From Deltaproteobacteria bacterium (lineage in GTDB: Bacteria > Myxococcota > SpSt-1050): a DNA stretch of 61,144 nt. The stretch spans positions 1 to 61,144 of the forward strand of contig JAOAFA010000076.1 of the NCBI GenBank assembly GCA_026416535.1. The letters run 5' to 3'. Made by a program: the position numbers and the translations under genes. Position 1 is the stretch's first letter. The number at the start of each line of letters is the position of its first letter. The notes beneath the pieces were generated by a model, which was given only the letters and a program-made list of their open reading frames with translations, ran no database searches and was not told the DNA's origin. Of the stretch, positions 660 through 18,437 are shown piece after piece.

Positions 660-3600
660 CTATTTATTACCACCTAAAGTACTTTTGAGCAATTCAAGCG
701 CCTCATTATAAGCAAAATTCTCTATCATATCTCTCATCTTGTCAACATTATCTCTTCCCATTAGATCCACCAAATTCCCCTCAACAATATCAAATATTTT
801 AATTGCATCTACATCACCGCCTTTAAGGGCCATTTTAAGTTCATTTAGCCTTTCGTCAAAAACATCTTTACTTACATACTGAAGATCCTTTCTCTTATCT
901 CCTTGTAATTTAGCCATCTCTTCTATTGCGTTCTTCAACTCTCTTTGAAACAACTCAAATGCATCTTTAATTTCTCTCATAGAGGAATCAGTTTTCAAGA
1001 TATTATCAAGGTAGACACTCTTCTCATAAACACCCTTTATACCCAAATTCCCACTAACACCTTTTATCGTATGAACTATCATCTCTGCTTCCTTGAATTT
1101 CCCTTTGTTTATTAGCTCAAGAATTTCAACATCAGCTACTTTATATCGCTCCCTAAAGCTACACAACATCTTTATATACGTATCTACATCATTTGACGTC
1201 TTCCGGAGACCATCAACTAAATCAATACCTTTTATGGCCAACAAATAATCAGGCAATTGAATACTTCTATTTTCCACACAACATTCTGTTTGTGCTGACC
1301 TATTAAAATAAAACTTAGAGATCGTCTTGAGTGCCAACGATTCGTCAAATGGTTTTGGAATATGCGCCACCAACCCTATACTCAACATCTCCTCTATTTC
1401 ATCCTTAAATACATGGGCAGTCATTGCTATGATAGGTAAACTTTTATATGACTCTTTCTCATAGATAATTTTTGTAGCTGTCTTACCATCCATGATCGGC
1501 ATTTGAATATCCATAAGAACAAAATTATAATAATCCGGTGGTCTTGCAAATACCATATCCACCGCCTCTCTCCCATTAGAGGCAAATTCTACCTCTGCCC
1601 CATACTTTTTTAGCAAATTTGCGGTTAGTTCTTGATTCAAATCATTATCTTCTACCAATAATACCCTTGCCCCTTTCAACATCAGAGGAACAGGCACAAA
1701 TTTTTCTTCAATCTCGACTTGATCCTCTGTAATTACTTCAAACTCTGCAGTAAAATAAAATGTAGAACCTTTTCCGAACTCTGAATCGACCCATATATCT
1801 CCCCCCATTTTTTCGACAAAGTATTTAGATATAGCTAATCCTAACCCTGTTCCTCCGAACCTCCTACTTATAGACGAGTCAACTTGAGTAAATGGCGTAA
1901 AGATTCTTATTTTATCTTCATCTTTTATTCCAATACCCGTATCTTGCACTGAAAAGAGCAATACAACCTTTCCGTTAGATACGGCCTTATTACTTACATT
2001 CACATAGACTCCCCCTTTATATGTAAACTTGCATGCATTAGAGATAAGATTTATTAAGACTTGCTGAAGTCTCTTAGGATCGCCTCTTAAATATCTTGGG
2101 ATGTTTTCCTCAACCTCAAATTTAAACTCAAGTCCCTTTTCTTCAGCCTTAATAGAAGTAATAGATTTTACCTTTTCCAGAGAATCATATAAATCAAATC
2201 CAATATTTTCTATATCCATTCTTCCTGATTCGATCTTTGAGTAATCCAGTACATCATTGATTATAGACATCAGATGATCAGACGCTGTCTTTGCCTTCTT
2301 AAGAATCTGCCTCTGTCTATCACTTAGCTCCGTTTCACCAAACTCTTCTATAGACCTAACAATTCCTGCAAGTGGCGTCCTCATCTCATGTGACATAGTA
2401 GCTAAAAACGCACTCTTTGCCCTACTGGCCCTCTCCGCATCTTCTTTAGCTACTCTATGAGCCTCTTGAATCTCTATATGGCGTGTTATGTCCTCTTTAA
2501 TCACCACATAGTCACTTACTTCATCAAATGAATTGATAATAGGAGAAATTGTAACAGCTTCATAAACTTTACTCCCATCATGTCTCGTAAAACTATATTG
2601 CTTAAATATACTGGTACGTGGAGGGGCTTTTTTTATTAGATATGTTATCCCTCTATTCAACTCCTCGATATTCATATGAGTTAACTCTTCCCTGGATAAA
2701 CCAGTATGACTAACAAATGCCTCATTTACATATTTTATATCACCATTCCTATCAATAAAACCAATGGGAATCGGATACTGCCCAAGGGCTGTGGCAAGCC
2801 TATTTATTTCATCTTGCCTCCTCTTCTCATCTGTGATATCCCTAAAAACTACAACTATACCAACACATTTATTACCCTCGACTATTGGAGTTACTATATT
2901 ATGAACATGGATTTTATCTCCACCTGACCTGATGAATAGGACATTCTCTCCTTCTATTCTCTTCGAAAAAGATAAGGATAGTTTAAATGGACACTCGTTT
3001 TCGCTGTGCATTTCACCATTCTCATCTGTATGTAACAAGTTGTGTATATTTGAACCCAATACCTCACCTTCTCCATAACCAAGTATTTTTTGGGCTGACC
3101 TATTCACAAAGGTTATATTAAGTCTATCATCAGTTCCTATTATACCATCACCAGCAGAACTTAAAACAGATTCATACAATTTACTTATCTTTTCCCTTTT
3201 TAACTCTGATTTCTTCTGTTCTATTATCGTTCCAAGCTGAATAGATATCTGACTAAAGGAATCTAAAAGCTGCTCATCGACATACTTATCCCTTGTGATC
3301 AAAAACATAATAAGCCCTATATTAATTTTATTAAACACAATAGGAAGTAAAAGTAATGAGAGATTATTTTTATCAAACTCTCTTGCTAAATCTGGATAAA
3401 ATTCAAAGTATCCGCTATCTACTACTTTTGCCTCATTTAAACTTGCCCAATCCTTTGAGATCTTCTTAAGTAAACTATCATCAAAAACCTCAACATCAAA
3501 ACCACATCTATTGCTATTTTTACATAGGAAAAAGCCATGCTGGGAATTGTATTCCCCGTACAAATAGTATCCGAAGGCAAGATAATTCATAAACTCAACA

Positions 3601-6600
3601 ATATAAGAGGCTGATTCCTTCACAATCTCACTTATGTCATAAAGATTAGTGGCTATAATAATTATATTTTTGACTAAAATAGCCAAACTTTCACTTCTTC
3701 TAATCTGCTCTGTTTGTCGCTCGACCTCTTCCCTCAAATTTTCTGACAACCTTGCTAATTCCTTATTAGCCTTTATAATCTCATTCTGAAGTCTAACTCT
3801 ATCAGAAATATCAGTTACTATACCCAAAATGGTCTTTTTTCCCCCAATCTCTATGAATCTTACATATATCTGCAATGTCAATTTTTTACCATCTTTCCTT
3901 ACTACCTCTATCTCAAATGGCCCCGAGACATTTTCACATATACTTTTGCGAAAAAACTCCACTGCCTGTCCAACTTTATCTTCAGCTATAAGACCACACT
4001 CTATAAAGTTCTTTCCAATCAATTCCTCTTTTTTATATCCTATCAATGCCTCTAAAGTCGCATTACCATCAATAAATACCCCATCTTCGCTCTGTAAATA
4101 ATACCCAACCGGTGCCTCATCAAAAAGCTTTCGAAACCTCTCCTCACTCTCTTTTAGAGCTATTTCCTTTTCCCTTTTTTCTGTAATATCTACAAAATAT
4201 ATATTAGCATAGGCTGTATCCGGGAAAGGAACTATAAGTGCACTATAACATCTTTCATTAATTTTATATTCCCTCTCAACATTCTTTTCTATCTCAAAAG
4301 AATAATCTATATCATTTTTTATACTTGTGGGAACAACCGAACCAAGAGATGTCTTCCAGAAATTAACCAAATCAACAGATGCCGGATTTGCATACAAGAG
4401 TATTCCATTTCTATCAATCCTAACAAGGGGATTAGGATTCTCAGTAGGAAACCTCGCCAGATTCTTTATTCTATCTATAAATTCCTTATTCTGCTTTTGA
4501 AGAAAAATATTTTCAATCTTCATTGAAATATCTTTTGAAATTCCTTCAAAAATTTTAATAACCTCATCACTGATCAAAATCCCATTTTTTATATTCAAAA
4601 TCAAATTACCATAAAAGACATTTCCCTCTTTTATCGAAATAATGACAACCTTCTCATCATCTTTTAAAAAATTAAAATTGCCGCACTTTACACAATCTTC
4701 ATATCTAAAATCATATATTACCCTCTCCTTTCTACTTATAGACTCTGATACACAATAAGGTAATTTGTCGTTATCAACAGGTCTTACACCATTTACATCT
4801 ACAAAAACAAGCCTTCTGGAAATACCTTCCTCGAACGTATATGAGTAAACAAATTTAAATAGGTTGTATTTAAATAAAATCTCAATCACCTTCATAAACA
4901 CAGATTGCGCACTCCCAGCATCAGTTACCTCTCTATTTATATCTGTGTTAATTTTAAGCAAGGCATTAATAAAATCTATTCTCTTTTGCCTGATTCTGTC
5001 CTCTGTAATATCCTCAAGAATTATGATAATGTTTTTCCCAATATTTCTTTTATAAAATTTCACATAAAATAAGTTACCGTTTTTGCTCAGCATCTTGGCA
5101 ACAATATTATCATTTTCATCAATCCCCATTTGTTCTTCAAAAACAAGCCTTGAATAGGAAACAAGTTCCTCACTTGTAGCAAAAGGAAATGCCCTTTTCA
5201 CCCACTCATCAAAATCAACCATATCATCTTTTGAATATCCGTATAAAGATACAAAACTTTTATTCAAAAAGATAATATTCTTAAATTTATCCATTACTAC
5301 CACAGGAAGGGGCATATTTTCAATAATTAGTTTGATCTCCTCTTCTCTCTGTAAAATTTCCGTCTCATACTTTACTATACTTGATATATCAGAAATCATA
5401 CCATACTTAATCTTCTCACCACTCCTCTTGTCCTTAATCAAAAACCCTTTAATCTGAATATACATATAATCACCATCTTGTCTCTTAAACCTCACTTGGA
5501 ATTCCACATAATCTCTACTCTTATTAAAGAATTTTATAAACCTATCCCTATCATCAGGATGAATTAGATCTAGTATTCCTTCAATATTATCTGGCAACAC
5601 TTCTACTTCATAACCCATAACCCTTTTAGTATTCCCCTCAAACGATATCTTACCAGTGTCGATATTATATGAATACACAATCTGATTAGATATCTCAAGC
5701 GATATAGTAAATTTTTTCAAAATATCTTTCAATGAAGACTGATACCTAATTCTACTGAGGGCAAGATTATATAAATTAATAAGTCTATTCAGCGTAAAAA
5801 CATCATTCTCCGTGTAATCTCTTGAAGAATTAGCAACAGCTATCTGCCCAATTACCTTAGTATTATTTATAACTGGCAATGCCAAAAACTTTTTTATCTC
5901 AATATGTCCCTTTGGAATCCCTTGTGACCTCACATCATGTTTTACATCATTTGATAGAACAACCTTCTTATTCTTTATTGACCATCCCCAAAGTCCAGAA
6001 TACTCTTTGAATACTACATTTTTATTTCTTATTTTGCATTCATTCATTATCTCCCTTGAAAATCTTGGAATAAAAAAATATCCTGTATCCTCATCTATAT
6101 ACCCGGCATATCCATATTTGCTATCCGTAATCCTCTTGGCAGCTCTAACAACAATATCCGAAATCCTCTCAACATCATCTGTCTGGTTTAATTCAAAAGA
6201 GGTTTTTATTAATATCTCATTAACTTCCTTTAACCGTTTAAGCTCTTTATCAGCTTTTGCATACTCCGTAATATCGATTCCAACACTTAATACGCCTATT
6301 ATCCTTTTACCTTCTCTAACTAATGAATTTGTAAAACTTATTGTCTTAATTATCCCATTCTTACCGATTACATCATTTTCAAAAACCCTGAATTTCTTAA
6401 TCCTTCCTTTAATTATATTGGAAAATACAGCAAAAATCCTTTTCTTTAATTCATCCGGCACAAAATGATCAAACCAATTTTTACCAATAGCCTCTTCTAC
6501 TTTATATCCTAATAGCCTTGCACCAGCTTCATTCAAAAAGCGAACATCACCACCTTTGTCAAGGAAAAGGATTAAAAGACCATCCGAATTTAGCATCGCC

Positions 6601-6644
6601 CTCTGAAAAATAGGATTATTACACAGATCAATCATATTTTTCAT
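660..6644 (-). CDS. Giant soluble hybrid histidine kinase (PAS/GAF array, HisKA, HATPase, REC, Hpt)
   Basis: This 1994-residue protein has no membrane segment, so it should sense cytoplasmic signals. The order I read is PAS (about 10-130), GAF (145-300), PAS (320-425), PAS (435-555), GAF-like (565-720), PAS (730-835), PAS (843-960), GAF (985-1145), PAS (1150-1270) and PAS (1275-1400). The catalytic part follows: HisKA with phosphoacceptor His1419 (MSHEMRTPL), HATPase with DTGIGI and GGTGLGLAI, REC with Asp1712 (LMDIQMP), and Hpt with His1858 (IVHTIKG). A helical tail of about 80 residues closes it. Phosphate would pass His1419 to Asp1712 to His1858 and on to the HD-GYP receiver encoded 8 bases downstream. 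Boundaries of the weaker PAS and GAF domains are approximate. The ATG at 6644 has only a weak purine-rich site upstream. Confidence 0.95.
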   Translation of the reverse strand: MKNMIDLCNNPIFQRAMLNSDGLLILFLDKGGDVRFLNEAGARLLGYKVEEAIGKNWFDHFVPDELKKRIFAVFSNIIKGRIKKFRVFENDVIGKNGIIKTISFTNSLVREGKRIIGVLSVGIDITEYAKADKELKRLKEVNEILIKTSFELNQTDDVERISDIVVRAAKRITDSKYGYAGYIDEDTGYFFIPRFSREIMNECKIRNKNVVFKEYSGLWGWSIKNKKVVLSNDVKHDVRSQGIPKGHIEIKKFLALPVINNTKVIGQIAVANSSRDYTENDVFTLNRLINLYNLALSRIRYQSSLKDILKKFTISLEISNQIVYSYNIDTGKISFEGNTKRVMGYEVEVLPDNIEGILDLIHPDDRDRFIKFFNKSRDYVEFQVRFKRQDGDYMYIQIKGFLIKDKRSGEKIKYGMISDISSIVKYETEILQREEEIKLIIENMPLPVVVMDKFKNIIFLNKSFVSLYGYSKDDMVDFDEWVKRAFPFATSEELVSYSRLVFEEQMGIDENDNIVAKMLSKNGNLFYVKFYKRNIGKNIIIILEDITEDRIRQKRIDFINALLKINTDINREVTDAGSAQSVFMKVIEILFKYNLFKFVYSYTFEEGISRRLVFVDVNGVRPVDNDKLPYCVSESISRKERVIYDFRYEDCVKCGNFNFLKDDEKVVIISIKEGNVFYGNLILNIKNGILISDEVIKIFEGISKDISMKIENIFLQKQNKEFIDRIKNLARFPTENPNPLVRIDRNGILLYANPASVDLVNFWKTSLGSVVPTSIKNDIDYSFEIEKNVEREYKINERCYSALIVPFPDTAYANIYFVDITEKREKEIALKESEERFRKLFDEAPVGYYLQSEDGVFIDGNATLEALIGYKKEELIGKNFIECGLIAEDKVGQAVEFFRKSICENVSGPFEIEVVRKDGKKLTLQIYVRFIEIGGKKTILGIVTDISDRVRLQNEIIKANKELARLSENLREEVERQTEQIRRSESLAILVKNIIIIATNLYDISEIVKESASYIVEFMNYLAFGYYLYGEYNSQHGFFLCKNSNRCGFDVEVFDDSLLKKISKDWASLNEAKVVDSGYFEFYPDLAREFDKNNLSLLLLPIVFNKINIGLIMFLITRDKYVDEQLLDSFSQISIQLGTIIEQKKSELKREKISKLYESVLSSAGDGIIGTDDRLNITFVNRSAQKILGYGEGEVLGSNIHNLLHTDENGEMHSENECPFKLSLSFSKRIEGENVLFIRSGGDKIHVHNIVTPIVEGNKCVGIVVVFRDITDEKRRQDEINRLATALGQYPIPIGFIDRNGDIKYVNEAFVSHTGLSREELTHMNIEELNRGITYLIKKAPPRTSIFKQYSFTRHDGSKVYEAVTISPIINSFDEVSDYVVIKEDITRHIEIQEAHRVAKEDAERASRAKSAFLATMSHEMRTPLAGIVRSIEEFGETELSDRQRQILKKAKTASDHLMSIINDVLDYSKIESGRMDIENIGFDLYDSLEKVKSITSIKAEEKGLEFKFEVEENIPRYLRGDPKRLQQVLINLISNACKFTYKGGVYVNVSNKAVSNGKVVLLFSVQDTGIGIKDEDKIRIFTPFTQVDSSISRRFGGTGLGLAISKYFVEKMGGDIWVDSEFGKGSTFYFTAEFEVITEDQVEIEEKFVPVPLMLKGARVLLVEDNDLNQELTANLLKKYGAEVEFASNGREAVDMVFARPPDYYNFVLMDIQMPIMDGKTATKIIYEKESYKSLPIIAMTAHVFKDEIEEMLSIGLVAHIPKPFDESLALKTISKFYFNRSAQTECCVENRSIQLPDYLLAIKGIDLVDGLRKTSNDVDTYIKMLCSFRERYKVADVEILELINKGKFKEAEMIVHTIKGVSGNLGIKGVYEKSVYLDNILKTDSSMREIKDAFELFQRELKNAIEEMAKLQGDKRKDLQYVSKDVFDERLNELKMALKGGDVDAIKIFDIVEGNLVDLMGRDNVDKMRDMIENFAYNEALELLKSTLGGNK

Positions 6645-7851: not shown

Positions 7852-9327
7852 TCACTTCTTAATGACTATATAGAAAAACGCACCATCTCTCAATATCATA
7901 AATCTAGCAGGTTTACCTCTTGGAATATTTTTATATATATTCATAAACTGATTTGCATTGTGAATCTTATTATTATTAAGTTCCAATATTATATCTCCCA
8001 CCCTTATATCTGCCTCATCAGCCAGAGAACCTTCAGAAACAGATTTAACTCTTACACCATAACTTAACCTTTCTCTCCTCATTACTTCGGGAGGTAAATT
8101 TTCAACTTCAATTCCCAGTTCACTACTCTTTTCTACCTGTCCCATGGATCTCTTCTCTAATTCTTCATCTGATGGCATTTTTGCAGGTTTAGCCTCCACT
8201 ACTATCTCCTTACCTTCCCTTAATAACTTTATCTTTACAGGCTTATTGATTGGAGAATTAGATACAAGCCACGGCAAATCATCTGATGTCTCTATCTTTT
8301 TCCCATTATACTCTACTATTATATCATCAGGCTTTATACCCGCTTTATCTGCTGGAGAATCTCGAAATACCGAGTATACGTAAGCACCCTTCTTACTCTT
8401 AAGATTGTAATTTTTGATTACTTCATCTGGAACAGGACCTAGTGAAATGCCAAGCCACGCCCTTTCAACCATACCTTTTTCTTTAAGCTGTGGCATTATC
8501 ACTTTAACCATATTTATAGGTACTGCAAACCCTATATTCTGGGCCGCTGCCGAGATTGATTCATTGATACCAATTACCTCACCTTTCATATTTAATAGAG
8601 GTCCACCTGAATTTCCCCTATTAATAGGAGCATCTGTCTGAATGAAATCAGCAAGCATATTTGGACCACCTGGTTTTACTTCCTTCCTACCTTTATATGA
8701 AACAATTCCCTTAGTAACTGTATGACTCAGACCTAAGGGATTACCAATAGCTATTACCCAATCCCCTATCTCAATGGCATCAGAATCCCCAAGAGGTAAA
8801 ACAGGAAGGGATCTATTGGCGTTAATCTTAATTAATGCAACATCAGTTCTCTCATCAGTCCCTATAATCTTTGCTTCATATTCATTCTCATCTTTATAAA
8901 GTTTAACTATAATCTTATCAACGTTGGCAACAACATGGTGATTAGTAAGAATATAGCCATCTTCACTAACAATGAAACCTGATCCCAATCCCGTCTGTTT
9001 ACCTTCTTTAGGAATATTTCTAAATCCAAAAAACCTTTCAAAAAAGTCATCAAAAGGATCATCATGAAATGGAGAACTTTTAAACTTTGGAAAATTATAC
9101 TTAATAACCTTTTCCACACTTATATTTACAACAGCCGGCATAGCCTTTTTTACAAGAGGGGCAAACGAAGCCGGTGTTTCAATTGTCGTTTTAGTCATAT
9201 TTTGAGAAATCGCATCTTGCAGTTTGCCTGTATTTGCTTGAAGGTATTTGTTACCATACTCAAAGCCAACAAAAAAGGTTCCTACCCCGACTACTACTAT
9301 TAAAGCGAAATATAATAACTTTTTCAT
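7852..9327 (-). CDS. degP: HtrA/DegP-type periplasmic serine protease
   Basis: This 491-residue protein has an N-terminal hydrophobic signal or anchor (about 4-23), a trypsin-like domain and two PDZ domains (roughly 285-375 and 400-490). The catalytic triad is visible as His131 (TNHHVV), Asp162 (ERTDVALI) and Ser240 (NRGNSGGPL). HtrA proteases degrade or refold damaged envelope proteins, using the PDZ domains to gate activity and bind exposed C-termini. Length and architecture match DegP/DegQ. An AGGAGG lies 10 bases before the ATG. It converges with the HDAC-like gene. Whether it behaves as DegP or DegQ cannot be settled from the sequence. Confidence 0.95.
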   Translation of the reverse strand: MKKLLYFALIVVVGVGTFFVGFEYGNKYLQANTGKLQDAISQNMTKTTIETPASFAPLVKKAMPAVVNISVEKVIKYNFPKFKSSPFHDDPFDDFFERFFGFRNIPKEGKQTGLGSGFIVSEDGYILTNHHVVANVDKIIVKLYKDENEYEAKIIGTDERTDVALIKINANRSLPVLPLGDSDAIEIGDWVIAIGNPLGLSHTVTKGIVSYKGRKEVKPGGPNMLADFIQTDAPINRGNSGGPLLNMKGEVIGINESISAAAQNIGFAVPINMVKVIMPQLKEKGMVERAWLGISLGPVPDEVIKNYNLKSKKGAYVYSVFRDSPADKAGIKPDDIIVEYNGKKIETSDDLPWLVSNSPINKPVKIKLLREGKEIVVEAKPAKMPSDEELEKRSMGQVEKSSELGIEVENLPPEVMRRERLSYGVRVKSVSEGSLADEADIRVGDIILELNNNKIHNANQFMNIYKNIPRGKPARFMILRDGAFFYIVIKK

Positions 9328-9519
9328 AAATCCATAACCTCCTATAAATTTATAACAACTACTGTCATAATTTATTCACTAAACTTCAAAATTTCAACCC
9401 CAAAAAATTAAGTTTATTCATTGAGCTCTTCGGCATACCATGCCTTAATACCCATCAAAACCATAATGTCACCCAATTTTATATGGACAAAACTTCATTA
9501 TTATTATAAATGGGAGCAT

Positions 9520-11751
9520 ATGGGTAGATCTACTGCTCTCAAAATAGGAATTTTAATATCAACGTCCTTTGCATTTATCAAATGGATTGCACCTGACATA
9601 GAAGACAATATATCAACTATTAATATATTAGAAAAAAGGTTCTTAGATCAAATGTTTATTTTAAGAGGTCCCAAAAAGGTATCTGACAATATTGTTATTG
9701 TTGATGTTGATGAAAAGAGCATAGCAGAACTAGGTAGATGGCCGTGGAATCGCTCTATTATGGCAGAGGCACTTAAAAGATTGCATAATGATTACAATGC
9801 TAGGACCATACTTTTCGATATAATATTTGCAGAACCAGACCCGTTTACCCAATTTTGCGAAGAACTTATTAGCAATATAAAGAACAATATTGGGATTGAA
9901 TCAGATTTACTTAAATGTGAGGATAATGACCATAATCTTGCTGATGCCATCAGAGAAGCAAAAAATGTGGTATTAGGTTATTATTTGAGTAATGTGGAAG
10001 AGGTTCCTGAGGAGATCGCTGAAAAAAATAAGCCATACTTCAAAAGCAGATCTCTTAGCACCTCTATAGTGGGAGACCCTTCAATTTGTAATATCCCTGA
10101 ATATACCTATGCTATCTCAAATAATGACACAATAAAAGACTCTTCAGAATACATAGGTTTCTTTACAATCGAACCAGACAATGATGGCATGTTTAGACGT
10201 GTCCCCTTAATATTAAAATACAAAGATGAATATTATCCCGCCCTATCACTTATCGGAGTTTCTGTCTTTCTTAACAGGCCAATAATAGTTCAAATGGGAG
10301 AAGACATCTTATATAGTGAAGGTAAATGTGTATCAATAAAAGTTGGAGAGGATGAGATTCCAATGAATCCATCTGAGGACAAAACAATGTACTTAGTAAA
10401 CTATTACGGTCCGAGTAGAACCTTTAGGTATATAAGTTTCTCTGATATATATTTTGGCCGTGCAGACAAAGTACAATTAAAAGATAAATTAATAATAATT
10501 GGTGTCAGTGCCCTTGGAGTATATGATCGCAGGCCTATCGCATTTGACTCTGAATTCCCGGGGGTTGAAATTCACGCTAATGTCATAGAAAACATACTCC
10601 AGAAAGACTATCTTGTAAGAATTCCATTTTATATGCATATTGAGGCCCTATCCATTCTTATTATTGGGCTTGTACTTTCATTACTTTTGTCAAAAACAAA
10701 GCTACAATATGGAATCTTGAGCTCATTCTTAATAATGGGATTATATATGTGTTTTATATACTTTATTTTTACAAAGGGCTACTATACAAAACTTACAATT
10801 AGCACCGTAGAGATGTTACTTCTAATCATAGTAATATCCACATTTAGATATATCACTGAGGAAAGGGAGAAGGGAAAGATTAGAAAGGCATTTTCTTACT
10901 ATGTCACAAAACAAGTGGTAGATGAGATAATGAAAGATATAAATAAACTAAAATTAGGTGGTGAGAAGAGGCTACTGACAGTCTTTTTCTCAGATATTAG
11001 AGGATTTACTACTATATCTGAGAAACTCCCACCTGAGATGCTTGTCAATCTACTACATGAATATCTCAACCCAATGACCGAGATCATATTCAAATATAAT
11101 GGAACATTAGATAAATATATGGGCGATGGGATAATGGCCATATTCGGAGCCCCACTCTATACACCAGACCACGCAATCAATTGCGCAAAGGCATCACTTG
11201 AAATGATAGAAGTCTTAAACAGACTCAAATCAGACTGGTTAAAGAGAGGGCTTCCAGAAATCAATATTGGAATTGGAATCAATACAGGCGAAATGGTAGT
11301 TGGGAACATGGGTTCTAAGGTCAAATTTGAATACACTGTTATTGGAGATCAGGTAAATCTCGCCTCACGGCTTGAAGGGACTAATAAAGAATACGGAACA
11401 AATATAATTATATCCGAGGGAACTGTCAAAAATTTGGATAATAAATTCATAGTTCGCGAACTTGACTTTATAAGAGTTAAAGGCAAAAAGGAACCTGTTA
11501 GAATATATGAATTGATCGGTGAAAAATCAGTGCTCCTCGGAGATATACCACTATGGATAAAAGTTTTTGAAGAAGGATTAGCTCTTTATAGAGCTCAAAA
11601 ATTTGAAGATGCCAAAATCAAATTTGAGGATGTAATAAAAATCAGAGGACAAGATAATCCCTCTGAAGTATTTTTAGAGAGAATTGAAATATTTAAGTCT
11701 GATCCCCCACCACCAGATTGGGATGGGGTATTTGTTATGAAGACTAAATAG
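9520..11751 (+). CDS. CHASE2-domain adenylate cyclase, class III
   Basis: Domains in order: an N-terminal transmembrane helix right after the chosen start, an extracytoplasmic CHASE2 sensor of about 330 residues (it opens with VDVDEKSIAELGRWPWNRS), three membrane helices, and a class III cyclase domain. The metal-binding Asp residues are in FFSDIRGF and DKYMGDGIMAIFG. The base-recognition Lys of LDKYMGD and Asp of VIGDQVNLASR favour ATP over GTP. A 60-residue tail follows. I chose ATG 9520 because GGGAG lies just upstream and the anchor follows at once. A TTG at 9421 and an ATG at 9466 are in frame but lack ribosome sites. It leads a run with a Crp-like receptor and a cAMP phosphodiesterase, so cAMP is the expected product. 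Confidence 0.92.
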   Translation: MGRSTALKIGILISTSFAFIKWIAPDIEDNISTINILEKRFLDQMFILRGPKKVSDNIVIVDVDEKSIAELGRWPWNRSIMAEALKRLHNDYNARTILFDIIFAEPDPFTQFCEELISNIKNNIGIESDLLKCEDNDHNLADAIREAKNVVLGYYLSNVEEVPEEIAEKNKPYFKSRSLSTSIVGDPSICNIPEYTYAISNNDTIKDSSEYIGFFTIEPDNDGMFRRVPLILKYKDEYYPALSLIGVSVFLNRPIIVQMGEDILYSEGKCVSIKVGEDEIPMNPSEDKTMYLVNYYGPSRTFRYISFSDIYFGRADKVQLKDKLIIIGVSALGVYDRRPIAFDSEFPGVEIHANVIENILQKDYLVRIPFYMHIEALSILIIGLVLSLLLSKTKLQYGILSSFLIMGLYMCFIYFIFTKGYYTKLTISTVEMLLLIIVISTFRYITEEREKGKIRKAFSYYVTKQVVDEIMKDINKLKLGGEKRLLTVFFSDIRGFTTISEKLPPEMLVNLLHEYLNPMTEIIFKYNGTLDKYMGDGIMAIFGAPLYTPDHAINCAKASLEMIEVLNRLKSDWLKRGLPEINIGIGINTGEMVVGNMGSKVKFEYTVIGDQVNLASRLEGTNKEYGTNIIISEGTVKNLDNKFIVRELDFIRVKGKKEPVRIYELIGEKSVLLGDIPLWIKVFEEGLALYRAQKFEDAKIKFEDVIKIRGQDNPSEVFLERIEIFKSDPPPPDWDGVFVMKTK

Positions 11752-11767
11752 AAAGGGAGAGTTTATT

Positions 11768-12406
11768 ATGTCAAACTACGATAATTCGTTACTCGAAAAA
11801 TATGGAAGAAAATTCCCGAAGAATAGCATAATATTCAAACAAGGAGATCTCTCACGAGAAATATTTATCTTGCAACAAGGAAAGGTTAAAATCTACCGAA
11901 ATATTCGAAACCAAAGCAAGACTTTAACCATACTTTCAAATGCAGGTGATTTTTTTGGTGAGATGTCATTCATAAACAACAAACCACGGTCTGCCACTGC
12001 CCAGACACTTGAGGAGACCACCCTAATTGTCCTCGAACCAGAGATATTCGAAAAAATGCTCTTCCAAAATCCGGAAATCTCTTTCAGATTCATAAAAAAG
12101 CTCGCGCAGAGGTTAGATGAGACTGACCTGCACATCGAGAACATACTCCTCAAGGACCCGGAAAGTAGATTTATACACTTTCTTATAAACCAGTCTCAAG
12201 ATAATTCTTATGAACTACCACTAACACTAAATGACATTGCTGAGTGGTTAGATGAACCCTATGAAACACTTACTCAAAAATTAGATAAATTTATCAAAAA
12301 AGGTTTTATTCAAATTACAAACGACGGTCTAAAAGTATTAAACCGTCCACTATTGTCAGAATATCTCGAATTTATTGAGATGAAGAAGAAATTCGGGGAG
12401 GAATAG
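11768..12406 (+). CDS. Crp/Fnr-family cyclic nucleotide-binding transcription regulator
   Basis: The 212 residues begin with a cyclic nucleotide-binding beta-roll (FKQGDLSREIFILQQGKVKIYR, then GDFFGEMSFINNKPRSATA, the phosphate-binding cassette). A long dimerisation helix and a C-terminal winged helix follow (LTLNDIAEWLDEPYETLTQKLDKF). The Glu and Arg in GEMSF and PRSATA are the residues that hold cAMP in Crp, so a true cAMP receptor is plausible. I see no Fnr-type iron-sulfur cysteine cluster. The HTH is more degenerate than in E. coli Crp. The ribosome site AAAGGGAG lies before the ATG, 16 bases after the cyclase stop, and the phosphodiesterase gene follows after 4 bases. Confidence 0.92.
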   Translation: MSNYDNSLLEKYGRKFPKNSIIFKQGDLSREIFILQQGKVKIYRNIRNQSKTLTILSNAGDFFGEMSFINNKPRSATAQTLEETTLIVLEPEIFEKMLFQNPEISFRFIKKLAQRLDETDLHIENILLKDPESRFIHFLINQSQDNSYELPLTLNDIAEWLDEPYETLTQKLDKFIKKGFIQITNDGLKVLNRPLLSEYLEFIEMKKKFGEE

Positions 12407-12410
12407 CAAT

Positions 12411-13178
12411 ATGGATATAGAGATATTAGGATCAGCCGGAGGAGATTACAAAAGATATAGATCTACATCTCTTCTTATTAATCGCAAGACATTGATTGAT
12501 GCTGGAGCTGTCGTATCACTTCTTAAAATTGACGAGATCCTTGAAATCGACAACATAATCTTGACACATCCACATATAGACCATGTAAAAGACATTGCCA
12601 TGATATCGGACCTAATCATTAAGAAAAGACGAACACCACTCAATATCTGGGGCACAAGACATACAATCTCAGTACTAAAAAACCACCTATTCAACGACCT
12701 CCTATGGCCAGATTTTACAAAAATACCAAACAAGAAAAATCCCACTATTAAATACATGACTTTTACAACTGAAAAACACATTAAAATTGATGAGCTAAAA
12801 ATATTTCCCATACCTGTAAACCATACAATAGAGACTATGGGCTTTATAATAAGTCAAAAGATGAGTGCCTTCGCCATAAGTGGAGACACGGGCCCTACCG
12901 ATAAATTATGGGAGTATATCAACAACGAAAAGAATATAAAATGCATCTTCGTTGAACTCTCTTTTCCAAACAGCAAAAGTGATATTGCTAAAGATTCAAA
13001 ACACCTGACACCAAACACATTGAAGACTGAGCTATCAAAACTAAAAAGACATAAAAATATTCCTATTTTTCTTTATCATCTAAAACCTTTATTTCATGAC
13101 ACTTTAATGAAAGAAATAAAGGAGCACTTTAATTCAAATATAATTCCACTCAACTCCAATGACCGCTTTAAATTCTGA
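12411..13178 (+). CDS. cpdP: Class II 3',5'-cyclic-nucleotide phosphodiesterase (metallo-beta-lactamase fold)
   Basis: The 255 residues carry the metal-binding signature HPHIDH (53-58), followed by NHTIETMGF, SGDTGPTDKLW, VELSFPN, KHLTP and a C-terminal YHLKP. This combination is typical of class II cAMP phosphodiesterases rather than generic beta-lactamase-fold hydrolases. The enzyme hydrolyses cAMP to AMP in the cytoplasm, or in the periplasm in some species; no signal peptide is visible here. It follows the Crp-like gene by 4 bases and its TGA overlaps the folC ATG by one base. The symbol is assigned by family resemblance. Confidence 0.85.
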   Translation: MDIEILGSAGGDYKRYRSTSLLINRKTLIDAGAVVSLLKIDEILEIDNIILTHPHIDHVKDIAMISDLIIKKRRTPLNIWGTRHTISVLKNHLFNDLLWPDFTKIPNKKNPTIKYMTFTTEKHIKIDELKIFPIPVNHTIETMGFIISQKMSAFAISGDTGPTDKLWEYINNEKNIKCIFVELSFPNSKSDIAKDSKHLTPNTLKTELSKLKRHKNIPIFLYHLKPLFHDTLMKEIKEHFNSNIIPLNSNDRFKF

Positions 13179-14467
13179 TGAAATCGCACCCTTTTCTTGA
13201 TAAACTAAAAAACAAAGGTATCACATTAGGTCTCGATAGGATTTATAATGCCCTTGCAGAGATTGATAATCCTCACAATTTTCAAAAGGGTGCCTTGATC
13301 GGAGGAACAAATGGAAAGGGTTCTACTTCTTATATGCTATATACACTCCTGGCTAAATCCGGATTTTCAACCTCCTTATATACCTCGCCTCACATCAATG
13401 AGATCAACGACAGATACCTCATAAACAACCAAAATATAACTGATGAGAAACTTAATTTCTATATTAATAATTTAAAATGGTTAGCCGATAAATACAACCT
13501 TACCCTATTTGAATTTGAAACTCTAATAGCATTTAAATATTTTAATGACGCAAAAGTAGATTTTGCAATATATGAAGTCGGCATGGGAGGTAGATTGGAC
13601 GCAACAAACTGTTTTAACCCATTTATAAAAATAATAACTTCTATCTCTAAAGACCATGTGGAGTTTCTTGGAGATACATTAGAAAAGATACTATACGAAA
13701 AGGCAGGAATAGTTAAAGAAGGAAATTTACTAATAACCGGCATAGAAGACAAGTCCTTAATTTCATTATTAAAGAGATATTGCCAGGAAAAAAAGTCAGA
13801 GATCCTTGTAATACATGAAGACTTTTTCATTAGCAATATACGAGAATATGACATCTACGAAATTTTTGATTTTTCATATAAAGATATAAAATTGAGCAAT
13901 ATAAAATTATCAATGTATGGGAGACATCAAGTAAATAATTGTGCGCTCTCAATAGTTGCATTTCTTGAATTGACTAAAAAATATGGATACAAAATAGACA
14001 GAAACATAATATACGACTCGCTCTCCACAATAAAATTTTCAGGGAGATTTGAGGTTTATTCCAGAGACCCTCTAATAATCATTGATGGTGCTCACAACAC
14101 CGATGGTATTCAAAAATTGAAAGAGTCTGTAAGTTCTTTTAACAGAAAAGAGAAAAAAATTCTGACAATCTTTTCCACATTGAGAAACAAAGACCCGATT
14201 GGGAAAATAAATATACTCAAAGACATCACAGAGAGATTTATTTTTGTAGAAAATGATCATCCTCTCACCTTAAAAAACCATGAATTCTATATACTTGCAA
14301 AACAGGCAAATCTAAGATATTTTGAATTAATGAACATAGATACAGCTATTAAAAAAATCTTTGAAGAGTATAAGGATTTTTTAATATTAATAACAGGATC
14401 TCTATACTCGTTACCAGAAATATATAAGCAGTTGGAGAAATACAGATACTATGGAGGACAGAGATAA
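13178..14467 (+). CDS. folC: Folylpolyglutamate synthase / dihydrofolate synthase
   Basis: The 429 residues have the Mur-ligase-like architecture of FolC: an ATP-binding P-loop GTNGKGST (43-50), the folate-proximal EVGMGGRLDATN, SKDHVEFLGDTLEKI, and DGAHNTDGI at the start of the C-terminal domain. The enzyme adds glutamate to dihydropteroate and to folates in the cytoplasm. Its start codon overlaps the phosphodiesterase stop, and its last 17 bases overlap the M50 protease gene, so translation of the three is probably coupled. It is one of the more AT-rich genes of the run. Dual activity is assumed from the family. Confidence 0.92.
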   Translation: MKSHPFLDKLKNKGITLGLDRIYNALAEIDNPHNFQKGALIGGTNGKGSTSYMLYTLLAKSGFSTSLYTSPHINEINDRYLINNQNITDEKLNFYINNLKWLADKYNLTLFEFETLIAFKYFNDAKVDFAIYEVGMGGRLDATNCFNPFIKIITSISKDHVEFLGDTLEKILYEKAGIVKEGNLLITGIEDKSLISLLKRYCQEKKSEILVIHEDFFISNIREYDIYEIFDFSYKDIKLSNIKLSMYGRHQVNNCALSIVAFLELTKKYGYKIDRNIIYDSLSTIKFSGRFEVYSRDPLIIIDGAHNTDGIQKLKESVSSFNRKEKKILTIFSTLRNKDPIGKINILKDITERFIFVENDHPLTLKNHEFYILAKQANLRYFELMNIDTAIKKIFEEYKDFLILITGSLYSLPEIYKQLEKYRYYGGQR

Positions 14468-15389
14468 GATCTACATCCCTGATATAATAACAAGAGATGG
14501 AAGGATATTTAATCAATACACAACTCCCAAAAAGAAGTTTCCTTATATTAACATAATTTTATTTATTATAACCCTCATAACAACCACATTAGCCGGTGCG
14601 GGGCTTGAGGGAATTACTTTGATAGATTTCATAATAGATCCGATTAAATCTTCTATGAAGGGGCTTCCATTCTCTATCACACTTATATGCATACTTCTTA
14701 CTCACGAGATGGGACATTTTTTTACTGCCAAAAAACATAGAGTAGAGGCATCCCTACCTTATTTCATACCAGCTCCCTTCGGCGTAGGAACATTCGGAGC
14801 AATAATAAAAATGAAATCACCTCTCAACAGTAGAAAGTCACTAATAGATATCGGTGCAGCTGGTCCCATCTCAGGATTTATTGTAGCCACTATTGCCACA
14901 ATATATGGGATCCAAACATCTAACCTAATCAGGATATCTGATCTACCCGACGGTGGGATAAGATTTCAAGATCCACTGATAGTAAAAATCCTTCAATATC
15001 TCCTAATTGGACCAATACCACATGGCTATGATATGCTACTTAATTCCGTGGGATTTGCTGGATGGCTTGGAATGCTCGTTACCTCACTAAACCTCCTCCC
15101 AATAGGACAATTAGATGGAGGACATATAGCGTATGCCCTCTTTGGAAATTTCTCAATATGGATATCGAGGTTAATATTTTTTATACTTATCTTCTTAGGA
15201 ATTTTTCTATGGCAGGGCTGGCTATTATGGGGATTTATAAGTTATTTTATTATTGGTCTAAGACATCCGCCATTAAGACCAGATGCAGATATTAATCTTG
15301 ACACAAAGCATAAAATTGTAGCATATATATGTATCATGATTTTCATCCTTACATTTATGCCCTCACCTATACTGGAGATAAAGAAATGA
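14451..15389 (+). CDS. Site-2 protease-type (M50) membrane metalloprotease
   Basis: The 312-residue polytopic protein has five to six hydrophobic segments. The zinc-binding motif HEMGH (His85, His89) and the third-ligand motif QLDGGH (Asp222) both lie within or next to membrane helices, as in site-2 proteases. There is no PDZ domain, unlike RseP, so it belongs to the compact group seen in plants and many bacteria. The substrate is unknown. Such proteases often release membrane-anchored regulators; the upstream cAMP genes and downstream small membrane protein offer no clear client. It overlaps folC by 17 bases, and its stop overlaps the next start as ATGA. Confidence 0.88.
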   Translation: MEDRDKIYIPDIITRDGRIFNQYTTPKKKFPYINIILFIITLITTTLAGAGLEGITLIDFIIDPIKSSMKGLPFSITLICILLTHEMGHFFTAKKHRVEASLPYFIPAPFGVGTFGAIIKMKSPLNSRKSLIDIGAAGPISGFIVATIATIYGIQTSNLIRISDLPDGGIRFQDPLIVKILQYLLIGPIPHGYDMLLNSVGFAGWLGMLVTSLNLLPIGQLDGGHIAYALFGNFSIWISRLIFFILIFLGIFLWQGWLLWGFISYFIIGLRHPPLRPDADINLDTKHKIVAYICIMIFILTFMPSPILEIKK

Positions 15390-15748
15390 ATTCTGACAAA
15401 TCAGAAAAATTTAATCTCCTCAAGGAGACACTAAAAAATGATTTTTCAAATGAAAATCTACATAATGTTATTATTGATTATTGTTTAGAAAATGATATAG
15501 AAATTGATTTGATAAACTTCTACAAAGAAAATATGGCTAACTACCCAGAGATATGCAAACAGATGCTCGAAAAGCTTTCAGACAGATCTGTTCAAAGGCT
15601 ATACAACACTAAGATAAAAACAAAGAGTCAACAAGAGAGTAAAAAGACCCTAATTAAACTCATTTTAATCCTTCTTGCCGCAATAACCGCAATGTTTTTT
15701 ATTTGGAAGGGCTTACTCTCATCATTTAAGACTCAGTTATTGCAATAG
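15386..15748 (+). CDS. Small tail-anchored membrane protein, unknown function
   Basis: This 120-residue protein has a charged helical N-terminal region, one transmembrane helix near residues 90-108 (LIKLILILLAAITAMFFIWK) and a short tail. I recognise no family. The start at 15386 overlaps the protease stop as ATGA, a common coupling arrangement; an upstream in-frame ATG at 15329 would read through the end of the protease gene and is less likely. It is tightly packed between the M50 protease and the FAD oxidase, so it may serve either. A membrane partner of the protease is a guess. Confidence 0.7.
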   Translation: MNSDKSEKFNLLKETLKNDFSNENLHNVIIDYCLENDIEIDLINFYKENMANYPEICKQMLEKLSDRSVQRLYNTKIKTKSQQESKKTLIKLILILLAAITAMFFIWKGLLSSFKTQLLQ

Positions 15749-15750
15749 AA

Positions 15751-17280
15751 ATGGAAAGAGACTTTTACAAAATAAAAAAATATTTTATATCTCTATTGGG
15801 AGAGAGATGGGTCTCTGACAATACAAAAGATACAATGTATTATAACAGAGATCTGTGGCCCAGAGAAATAATAGCATCAAAGTTTGGTGTGTTTAAGAAC
15901 AAGCCAGATTTAATTTTATGGCCCAAAAACGAAGAAGAGATCGTGAATATAATAAAAATTGCCAATGAACACAAACTAAATATTATACCGTTTGGCGCTG
16001 GTAGTGGTGTATGCGGGGCAACACTTCCTCTATCTCAAGGGCATAACATCATTGTTGACACTAAGAGGATGAATAAAATACTTAACGTCGACTACCAAAG
16101 CCTAATCTTAAATGTAGAGGCAGGGGCAATAGGATATCCACTAGAAATACAATTAAACAACAAGGGTTTTACAATAGGGCACTTCCCCTCTTCCATATAC
16201 TGCTCAACTGTGGGAGGATGGCTAGCCTCGAGATCGGCAGGCCAGGAATCATCAAGATACGGCAAGATAGAAGATATGGTAGTATCGCTCAGAGTTATTA
16301 CAGGTCATGGAGAGATCATAGACACATCAGAGATTGTATCATCAGAGATAAGTGGAGATCTAAATCAGCTGTTTATTGGAAGCGAAGGCACTCTTGGAAT
16401 AATATGTTCTGCAGGCTTGAGTATCAACTATCTCCCGAAATTCAAGACATATTCCTCCTTCATTTTCAAGAATATAGAGCAAGGATTAAGTGCTATCAGA
16501 GAGATGATGCAAAACGATGTGGGAGGAAGTGTTATAAGGCTATATGACGAATTAGATTCTTATATTGCGCTCGGGCACACAAAAGAAAAAAAAGAAGGCC
16601 TATTTAAAAAGTATGTTGAAAATTTAAACGGCGACTTCTCTGACATATTCTTGAAAAGAATATTATCATTTCCTCAATTACTAAATTCTTTGTCGCAATT
16701 AATTACACAAGGATGTTTATTGATAGTTTTACACACTGGAAATGAGAGTGAGTTTGTAAAATACTGTCAAGTCAAATCACATAAAATAGCTGAAAAATAC
16801 AGTGGTAAAAATATGGGAGAGGAGCCTGCAAAAAAGTGGGAGAGAAATAGATATTCTATATCCTACAAGCAATCAAAAATCTTTTATGCTGGTGGTTTCG
16901 TAGATACTATGGAAGTAGCAACAACGTGGGATAAGGTAGCTGAGCTATACCACGAAGTTAAAAGGGTTATACAAGATAAGGCATTTTTAATGGCACATTT
17001 CAGTCATGCATATCAAGACGGATGTTCCATATATTTTACCTTTGCAGCAAAGGCCAATAATTATAACGATGCCATTAAAAGATACGAGAGAATATGGAAA
17101 AATATCCTTGATGTTGTTTTAGGCTTAAAAGCAACAATTAGCCACCACCATGGTATAGGGGTTTCAAAGCTCGAACATCTAAGAAAACAACTGGGAGAAG
17201 GCACTGAACTCTTCAAGATCTTGAAAAGGGCATTTGACCCCAATAATATCATGAATAAGGGAAAGTTCTTCTCGGAGTAA
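15751..17280 (+). CDS. FAD-linked oxidase resembling alkyldihydroxyacetonephosphate synthase
   Basis: The 509 residues form a PCMH-type FAD enzyme. The FAD pyrophosphate loop is FGAGSGVCGATLP, followed by GGWLASRSAGQESSRYGK and VITGHGEIIDT. In the C-terminal domain SHAYQDGCSIYFTF and ATISHHHGIG (His465-467) are the hallmarks that separate alkylglycerone-phosphate synthases from plain D-lactate or glycolate dehydrogenases. Such enzymes swap an acyl for an alkyl chain in ether-lipid synthesis, but bacterial homologues often have untested substrates. It starts 2 bases after the small membrane protein, and a second FAD-binding protein follows after 2 bases, which suggests a two-protein unit. Confidence 0.85.
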   Translation: MERDFYKIKKYFISLLGERWVSDNTKDTMYYNRDLWPREIIASKFGVFKNKPDLILWPKNEEEIVNIIKIANEHKLNIIPFGAGSGVCGATLPLSQGHNIIVDTKRMNKILNVDYQSLILNVEAGAIGYPLEIQLNNKGFTIGHFPSSIYCSTVGGWLASRSAGQESSRYGKIEDMVVSLRVITGHGEIIDTSEIVSSEISGDLNQLFIGSEGTLGIICSAGLSINYLPKFKTYSSFIFKNIEQGLSAIREMMQNDVGGSVIRLYDELDSYIALGHTKEKKEGLFKKYVENLNGDFSDIFLKRILSFPQLLNSLSQLITQGCLLIVLHTGNESEFVKYCQVKSHKIAEKYSGKNMGEEPAKKWERNRYSISYKQSKIFYAGGFVDTMEVATTWDKVAELYHEVKRVIQDKAFLMAHFSHAYQDGCSIYFTFAAKANNYNDAIKRYERIWKNILDVVLGLKATISHHHGIGVSKLEHLRKQLGEGTELFKILKRAFDPNNIMNKGKFFSE

Positions 17281-17282
17281 TA

Positions 17283-18437
17283 ATGGATAGGGTATTAAAC
17301 GAAGTATTTAAAAGACTCTTAGATGTAGGTATCCAATCTCATTACTCGGCCACTTCACAAAAAATACATATAAGTGTGACCAAAAACGATGAGATAGAGA
17401 AGGTTAGATCTATCATAAAAAAATTTAAACTAAGACTGTCTTTTATTGATACGGCAAATTCTAACATAATTCTTGAAAACAAAATTAATGAAAGTAAAAT
17501 TTTATTAAATAAGGAATCATCACTTTTAACCGTTGGTGTTTTATACAACATTATTGAGGCAGAAAAATTTCTAAATGCACATGGGTTTTCAATTGGATAT
17601 TATTTTCCACCTGTTCTTTCCTCTACTGAGATGACGTTTGCAGATTGGATAAAAAATTTTCATATTCCATCCCTTAATTACTATGATAAAGATCTCTCAG
17701 GGAATATTAGAGGAATCAAAGGGATATTGCCTAATGGGAATACATTTGAAACCATAAATGCACCAAGAATGGCAACGGGTTCTGATATAGTAAGGCTGCT
17801 TCTGCTCGCTGGACAAAATCTCTTCTCTCCGTTTGAGATCACCCTAAGGATTCGACCACTCAAACATAATATAAAAATACTCTCATTTTCATCTAAAAGA
17901 ATTAAAAATCTGCTCTCAGCTCTTGCCTCTCTTGCATTAAAGAATATAAAAATAGAATTTGCAACCCTATATACAAGAGAGGATCAACACAATGACCCTA
18001 TGTTGGAGATTGGATACAACCAGGATGATATCTTTGACTTCATGAATTGGATAGTAAGAACCGTAAATAATGAAGGTGTATCACTAATAAATACTTTGTC
18101 AGAATATGACGAAATAAAAATGCGTCTCAATAATTTAATCAAACATGAATACCAAATAGAGATCTATGCTAAATATAAGGGAATTGGAAAGCTAGATGAG
18201 ATACTAAAATCTCTTTTTCAAAACATAAGATTTAATGGTTATCTTTATCGTTATGAAAAAAACTCATTCTCTTTTAGAGTAATTTTACCTCCAAACCTAT
18301 ATCAGCAACTGAAAGATAACCTTATTTCAGAATGCTCAAAATACAAAGAAGATATTAGAATCAGTGAATGTACAGAAGGGTCTAAAGATCAGATACCCCT
18401 CTCTATCTACTCAAAGATAATACACTCATGCTTATAA
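17283..18437 (+). CDS. Divergent FAD-binding (GlcE-like) oxidase subunit
   Basis: The 384-residue protein looks like the FAD-binding half of a PCMH/GlcE-type protein. The recognisable block is TFADWIKNF through GNIRGIKGILPNGNTFE and ATGSDIVRLLLLAGQNLFSPFEITLRIRPL, matching the substrate-side FAD-binding region. The usual glycine-rich FAD loop near residue 90 is poor, so it may not bind FAD in the usual way. It follows the alkyldihydroxyacetonephosphate-synthase-like gene by 2 bases, an arrangement like the GlcD-GlcE subunits of glycolate oxidase. A role as partner subunit is inferred. It converges on glycogen phosphorylase with a 4-base gap. Confidence 0.72.
   Translation: MDRVLNEVFKRLLDVGIQSHYSATSQKIHISVTKNDEIEKVRSIIKKFKLRLSFIDTANSNIILENKINESKILLNKESSLLTVGVLYNIIEAEKFLNAHGFSIGYYFPPVLSSTEMTFADWIKNFHIPSLNYYDKDLSGNIRGIKGILPNGNTFETINAPRMATGSDIVRLLLLAGQNLFSPFEITLRIRPLKHNIKILSFSSKRIKNLLSALASLALKNIKIEFATLYTREDQHNDPMLEIGYNQDDIFDFMNWIVRTVNNEGVSLINTLSEYDEIKMRLNNLIKHEYQIEIYAKYKGIGKLDEILKSLFQNIRFNGYLYRYEKNSFSFRVILPPNLYQQLKDNLISECSKYKEDIRISECTEGSKDQIPLSIYSKIIHSCL

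Follow-up and report, generated by a model that had tools for sequence, protein, structure and literature searches.

The control of bacterial physiology by cyclic AMP (cAMP) usually relies on an adenylate cyclase and on CRP acting at promoters, and the phosphodiesterases are encoded elsewhere and are poorly known. The nearest described locus to the one that is presented here is cyaD1/clr/smc02178/spdA of Sinorhizobium meliloti, where the genes for a CHASE2 adenylate cyclase and for a Crp-like cAMP receptor are found together with that of a predicted phosphodiesterase (PMC4222275, PMC13001267); in the CyaC-Clr-CycR system of the same species, a CRP-like protein binds its cyclase (PMC10463352). 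Here, we have analysed a trio of genes that encode a CHASE2 class III cyclase, a Crp/Fnr-type protein (“the trio receptor”) and a metallo-beta-lactamase (MBL)-fold phosphodiesterase (“the hydrolase”), located in a stretch of 61,144 nucleotides from a Deltaproteobacteria bacterium (GCA_026416535.1, contig JAOAFA010000076.1), which belongs to a 2.96-Mb draft genome and is referred to, at its full length, as “the window”. While Clr is a proven DNA-binding activator, the trio receptor lacks the canonical recognition residues, and while SpdA is a class III metallophosphoesterase with its own promoter, the hydrolase of the window is class II-like and packed in one operon. A previous, sequence-only reading of the window had described the trio as a module that makes, senses and destroys cAMP, and did not know of it as a described system; no description of a single Myxococcota-wide operon in which the trio includes a class II-type enzyme has been found in the open-licence papers searched either, the S. 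meliloti locus being the nearest to it.

The trio is a real unit, kept together across many myxobacteria-related species, and its unusual element is the receptor. With a confidence slightly better than even, we interpret the trio as a cAMP module that heads a longer operon, the output of the receptor being likely a protein contact rather than promoter activation of the CRP type. The three co-directional open reading frames (ORFs) are separated by gaps of 16 and 4 bases, and their products exceed the Pfam gathering cut-offs for CHASE2 and Guanylate_cyc, for cNMP_binding and HTH_Crp_2, and for PDEase_II and Lactamase_B_2 (58.6 bits for the latter), respectively, which confirms the gene types and the spacing of the sequence-only reading (Table 1). 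The cyclase residues are numbered from the ATG at position 9520; an upstream in-frame TTG at 9421 is likewise open. The start of folC, which the sequence-only reading did not mention, overlaps the stop codon of the hydrolase by one base (TGATG, 13178); since folC begins within this stop codon and same-direction genes follow, the trio appears to be the front of a longer operon, the transcript of which probably extends to folC and further downstream. A scan of the plus strand along the co-directional genes, up to position 18437, has found no terminator-like sites.

Table 1. Positions of the trio, of its diagnostic residues and motifs, and of the neighbouring features in the window.
Feature	Position	Strand	Remarks
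CHASE2-domain class III (IIIb-type) adenylate cyclase	9520..11751	+	743 aa, ATG start; PF05226 191.5 bits, PF00211 96.3 bits
Substrate-specificity Lys532 codon	11113..11115	+	K in 23/23; same residues in 3r5g and 1wc1
Thr606 codon, partner of Lys532	11335-11337	+	T in 23/23
CRP-like cyclic-nucleotide receptor, non-canonical winged helix-turn-helix and conserved C-terminal tail	11768..12406	+	212 aa; PF00027 81.6 bits, PF13545 31.5 bits
Phosphate-binding cassette (residues 60-78, GDFFGEMSFINNKPRSATA)	11945..12001	+	E72 and R82 equivalents invariant, 61 relatives
Recognition-helix position (residues 164-177, PYETLTQKLDKFIK)	12257..12298	+	Tyr, Gln in place of CRP R180, R185
Receptor C-terminal tail (residues 196-212, LSEYLEFIEMKKKFGEE)	12353..12403	+	Family consensus FLEFLEMKxKFGD
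MBL-fold hydrolase, predicted class II cyclic-nucleotide phosphodiesterase	12411..13178	+	255 aa; PDEase_II 60.6 bits
HPHIDH metal motif (residues 53-58)	12567..12584	+	43 relatives: H53, H55 and H58 in all, D57 in at least 90%
FNDLLWPDF motif (residues 94-102)	12690..12716	+	Alignment to 4ojv; yeast PDE1 counterpart FNDLIWPDL
folC (folylpolyglutamate/dihydrofolate synthase)	13178..14467	+	TIGR01499 313 bits
M50-type membrane protease, 139-aa ORF, FAD-linked oxidase (GlcD-like), 384-aa ORF	14451..18437	+	Co-directional downstream genes
Intergenic region between the divergent htrA/degP-like gene and the operon	9328..9519	.	No convincing conserved operator palindrome
htrA/degP-like gene, divergent from the operon	7852-9327	-	

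The hydrolase has a match in 40 of the 58 genomes of relatives, and the named relatives that were retrieved with its profile are mostly Myxococcota (Myxococcus, Archangium, Corallococcus, Polyangium, Sorangium and many metagenome-assembled genomes, MAGs). We have compared the neighbourhoods of 108 independent loci and the window; 101 of them (window included) could be labelled, with the labels set by hand in L070 and L085, in which the receptor was masked by an ORF that had been called too long, and in L163, where the receptor is located upstream of the cyclase. According to this simple label, cyclase, receptor and hydrolase occur on one strand in 37 of the 101 loci, the window included, while receptor and hydrolase occur without the cyclase in 43 (9 of these at contig ends), cyclase and hydrolase only in one, and neither receptor nor cyclase in 20. 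Under the strict criteria of the script, 76 of the 108 independent loci have the receptor right next to the hydrolase, with a median spacing of 2 and a spacing of 5 or less in 52 of the 76, so that the clustering of the three genes is not due to chance. On the hydrolase tree, the trio is found in several deep clades, with a minimum of 13 changes for the presence of the cyclase and 11 for that of the receptor; the locus counts and the tree changes together indicate that the receptor-hydrolase pair is the stable core, to which the cyclase is less constantly attached. The sequence-only reading had proposed a search for the trio in other genomes and had named its absence from close relatives as a refutation; the trio is present in the same genus (G001, hydrolase identity 75%), in the same order (G002) and in many Myxococcota families.

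Variants of this arrangement have also been observed: in L075, the hydrolase directly follows the cyclase with no receptor in between, and in one group of relatives (L053, L061, L074 and L078), one or two extra genes (~553-587 aa) are located between cyclase and receptor; in L061 and L074, an additional protein of 410-455 aa, which matches the receptor weakly, occurs at this same place.

The DNA-recognition helix of the trio receptor has been compared with that of a matched control, i.e. a second CRP-type protein of the window genome (G000:C25:38213-38890, L035), which has a TRETVTR helix, and its orthologues from the same relatives. At the positions of R180, E181 and R185 of CRP, the trio receptor of the window has Tyr, Glu and Gln, and the triad is not conserved among the relatives; position 185 is occupied by Glu, Ser, Asp or Gln across the family, and is often acidic. 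In the control family, R180, E181, T182 and R185 are kept in all 30 sequences. No other part of the trio receptor is as poorly conserved as its recognition helix, which has an entropy of 2.04 bits versus 0.49 bits in the control, although the two families have diverged to a similar extent (mean pairwise identity of 0.56 and 0.52, respectively). Because the canonical CRP of the same genomes retains the recognition residues throughout, their loss is specific to the trio receptor. The winged helix-turn-helix (wHTH) domain itself is recognised in the window by HTH_Crp_2 with 31.5 bits, the cut-off being 27. Sites of the E. coli CRP type occur in the window at chance level (27 seen, 28 expected), and no long conserved operator palindrome has been found between the upstream regions of the window (G000) and of the same-genus G001.

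The ligand pocket of the trio receptor is conserved: the phosphate cassette GEMSFINNKPRSA is present in the window, the position of Ser83 of E. coli CRP is occupied by Ser, Asn or Thr in 61 sequences, and the entropy of the cassette is 0.55 bits both in the trio receptor and in the control family. The second conserved element is the C-terminal tail, formed by the last 17 residues of the receptor, with a mean entropy of 1.03 bits versus 2.00 bits for the HTH. In the window, the Shine-Dalgarno sequence of the hydrolase (GGGGAGG) is located in the last codons of the receptor; we have considered whether the tail is a by-product of this overlap, but the tail is equally kept where the next gene lies 94-147 bases downstream, so a ribosome-binding constraint cannot explain it. 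The AlphaFold2 model of the receptor, of moderate quality (predicted local distance difference test, pLDDT, 84.8; predicted template-modelling score, pTM, 0.56), has a CRP fold with helices at residues 154-161 and 165-177 and an extra C-terminal helix at residues 193-209, and among known structures it matches GlxR, M. tuberculosis CRP and Thermus CAP in fold. Since the recognition residues have been lost while the ligand pocket and the tail are conserved, the output of the receptor is most likely a protein contact, which would be mediated by the tail and may involve the co-encoded phosphodiesterase, the cyclase or another conserved partner; a transcriptional output would more likely come from the canonical CRP, the gene of which lies at another place in the genome. 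The Crp/Fnr-type label of the sequence-only reading holds for the cyclic-nucleotide-binding (CNB) domain, the pocket and the wHTH, but not in the sense of a standard regulator, given the loss of R180 and R185.

The cyclase consists of CHASE2, three predicted transmembrane helices at around residues 372-445 (from hydropathy), the catalytic domain and a C-terminal DWDGV tail. The metal-binding Asp492 and Asp536, the substrate-binding Lys532 and Thr606, and the transition-state residues Asn613 and Arg617 are identical in 23 of 23 sequences. The base-recognition pair is Lys/Thr, which is of the class IIIb type and typical of bona fide adenylate cyclases, and not Lys/Asp; it aligns with the pairs of P. 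aeruginosa CyaB (3r5g) and Spirulina CyaC (1wc1), which are the matches of the cyclase in the Protein Data Bank (PDB), and the enzyme is predicted from these residues to be ATP-specific. Class IIIb cyclases are responsive to bicarbonate. A GTP-specific cyclase was considered as well, and the occurrence of Lys/Thr, not Glu and Cys, speaks against it; the cyanobacterial cyclase structure 2w01, a guanylyl cyclase according to the literature, has Glu where the cyclase of the window has Lys.

The hydrolase exceeds the PDEase_II (PF02112) cut-off of 23.7 bits by a wide margin, as its score in Table 1 shows, and 31 of 31 relatives match this family too. When the profile of the 31 relatives is compared with solved structures, yeast PDE1 is the best match (4.3e-15) and contains the same stretch, FN-D-x-[IL]-W-P-D; YhfI, the B. 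anthracis homologue of YhfI and further MBL proteins come next. The AlphaFold2 model of the hydrolase (mean pLDDT 95.7) also has the yeast PDE1 structure 4ojv at Foldseek rank 1 (E 1.7e-18, TMq 0.80). Compared with HxHLDH, the HPHIDH motif retains the metal residues and has Ile at the position of Leu, which is present in many relatives, and residues F94, N95, W99, P100, D101 and F102 of the second motif are invariant among the relatives. Atypical class II phosphodiesterases (PF12706) are kept apart from the typical class II (PF02112) in the literature (PMC9293780); the hydrolase family matches both profiles about equally, yet has the FNDxxWPD motif of PDE1. The identification of the hydrolase as RNase Z or PhnP has been rejected, the scores being far below the NCBIfam equivalog cut-offs. 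Sequence and model thus predict a class II-type cyclic-nucleotide phosphodiesterase, with a 3',5'-cyclic nucleotide as its putative substrate. The residues and motifs that the sequence-only reading had listed for the three proteins are all present, and its adenylate-type and class II assignments are supported by these alignments. In other lineages, GAF/HD-GYP-type genes are followed almost without a gap by a gene of the hydrolase family (L148 5468-6004, L114 2655-3874 and L162 4324-5988), hinting at a link of this family with another nucleotide-signalling pathway.

In the mechanism that we propose, the membrane-bound CHASE2 class IIIb adenylate cyclase would make cAMP on an envelope signal, possibly also on CO2/bicarbonate; the CRP-like protein, the pocket residues of which are in place, would bind the cyclic nucleotide; and the class II-type phosphodiesterase, with its observed fold, metal motif and PDE1-specific motif, would hydrolyse it and reset the signal. 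The ligand of such a unit is most likely cAMP. We further propose, tentatively and with a confidence clearly below even, that this is a Myxococcota-wide module in which a CRP homologue has given up DNA binding of the CRP type, and in which the cAMP-dependent binding of its tail to a partner, possibly the phosphodiesterase or the cyclase, provides a post-translational cAMP feedback. The self-limiting module in one transcript of the sequence-only reading stands as far as a packed, conserved trio is concerned, although the cyclase is its least constant member. The module is not sealed: the transcript probably continues, and the genome encodes three further proteins with a cyclase domain and eleven further ones with a CNB domain, the canonical CRP among them, so that the insulation of the trio would need local contact. 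Among these genes, CNB domains appear by eye to be fused to an acetate kinase-like protein, a PP2C-type phosphatase and a GspE/PilB-type ATPase (G000:C70, L045; G000:C22, L040; G000:C121, L041, respectively).

Several observations weigh against this interpretation, some of them in favour of other explanations. The cyclase is frequently missing from the locus, and many genomes hold receptor and hydrolase alone. At the adenine contacts T127 and S128 of CRP, the window has T/D, whereas most relatives have A/D, as does the canonical CRP control; the identity of the ligand is not fixed by these residues. The tail is not universal, as a side branch (e.g. L091, L093 and L105) has a different ending, FLDFIRNSG, and L098, L099 and L104, on the side of Polyangia, lack the motif. 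Lineage-specific DNA binding by the receptor is possible: HTH_Crp_2 matches 24 of 28 relatives' receptors, and within Myxococcaceae the recognition helix shows fairly little variation. These two features, along with the two helices of the wHTH model and the autoregulation that is common in the CRP family, would fit an ordinary cAMP-CRP operon, where the receptor binds DNA with a specificity that has diverged per lineage (few targets, perhaps its own promoter) and the feedback is transcriptional; we regard such an operon as rather unlikely, with the recognition helix being the least conserved part of a protein whose position 185 is often acidic, the control keeping its triad, no operator palindrome shared with G001, and CRP-like sites at chance in the window.

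An equally doubtful explanation is that the hydrolase acts on another phosphodiester (a 2',3'-cyclic nucleotide, a tRNA or nucleotide metabolite, or a folate-linked compound), its cyclase and receptor neighbourhood being only partly functional. In Smithella-type genomes, outside Myxococcota, the hydrolase is located next to folC with neither receptor nor cyclase at the locus, and a close relative of the cyclase is encoded elsewhere, among other genes and without a receptor; some Polyangiaceae have the hydrolase behind a groEL-like gene, and profiles or structures of RNase Z, YhfI and PhnP match as well. There is also the precedent of SpdA, a phosphodiesterase predicted from a like context, which proved 2',3'-specific, with no detectable 3',5'-cAMP activity (PMC4222275). 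On the other hand, yeast PDE1 is the best match by both profile and fold and has the FNDxxWPD motif in common with the hydrolase, the receptor is the commonest neighbour of the hydrolase, often overlapping it or 0-5 bases away, and the atypical class II relative Rv1339 hydrolyses cAMP (PMC9293780). That the three genes are mere neighbours in a conserved folC region, with no joint function, is very improbable: a folC-like gene is indeed located near the hydrolase in many relatives, and the genome has other cyclase and CNB genes, but the trio recurs without folC in 8 loci and, outside Myxococcota, in the order receptor-cyclase-hydrolase in a Mcinerneyibacteriota MAG (L163/L202), and the chemistry of the three products is complementary.

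Near the operon, the minus strand encodes a protein of 1994 aa (window 660-6644), which by eye resembles a hybrid histidine kinase that combines multiple PAS/GAF domains with a receiver and an Hpt-like portion.

A compact unit that spans the phylum and includes a class II phosphodiesterase would give myxobacteria-like organisms an enzyme that switches cAMP off. The receptor, for its part, is a clean case, open to testing, in which a CRP fold has been retained to sense a ligand, but apparently not to read DNA in the canonical way.

Compared with the known enzymes and receptors, each member of the trio has both shared and distinct elements. The cyclase has the Lys/Thr pair, the two metal Asp residues and the Asn/Arg residues in common with the class IIIb cyclases P. 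aeruginosa CyaB and Spirulina CyaC, but carries a CHASE2 input domain, from which the input domains of those two enzymes differ. The hydrolase has the MBL fold, HxHxDH and FNDxxWPD in common with yeast PDE1 (a class II cAMP phosphodiesterase, 4ojv), its top match in sequence and fold, but it is prokaryotic and shorter (255 aa versus 369 aa), with 21% identity in the structural alignment and an activity that is predicted only; with the atypical class II phosphodiesterases (Rv1339, YhfI and C. glutamicum CpdA) it shares the MBL fold and [T/S]HxHxDH, the next-best fold match being 6kns, but these do not align across its FNDxxWPD stretch. Finally, the CNB domain, the phosphate cassette, the C-helix and the wHTH fold are common to the trio receptor, E. 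coli CRP, GlxR and M. tuberculosis CRP, while the trio receptor differs from the other three in having no conserved R180/E181/R185 and in having an additional, conserved C-terminal tail.

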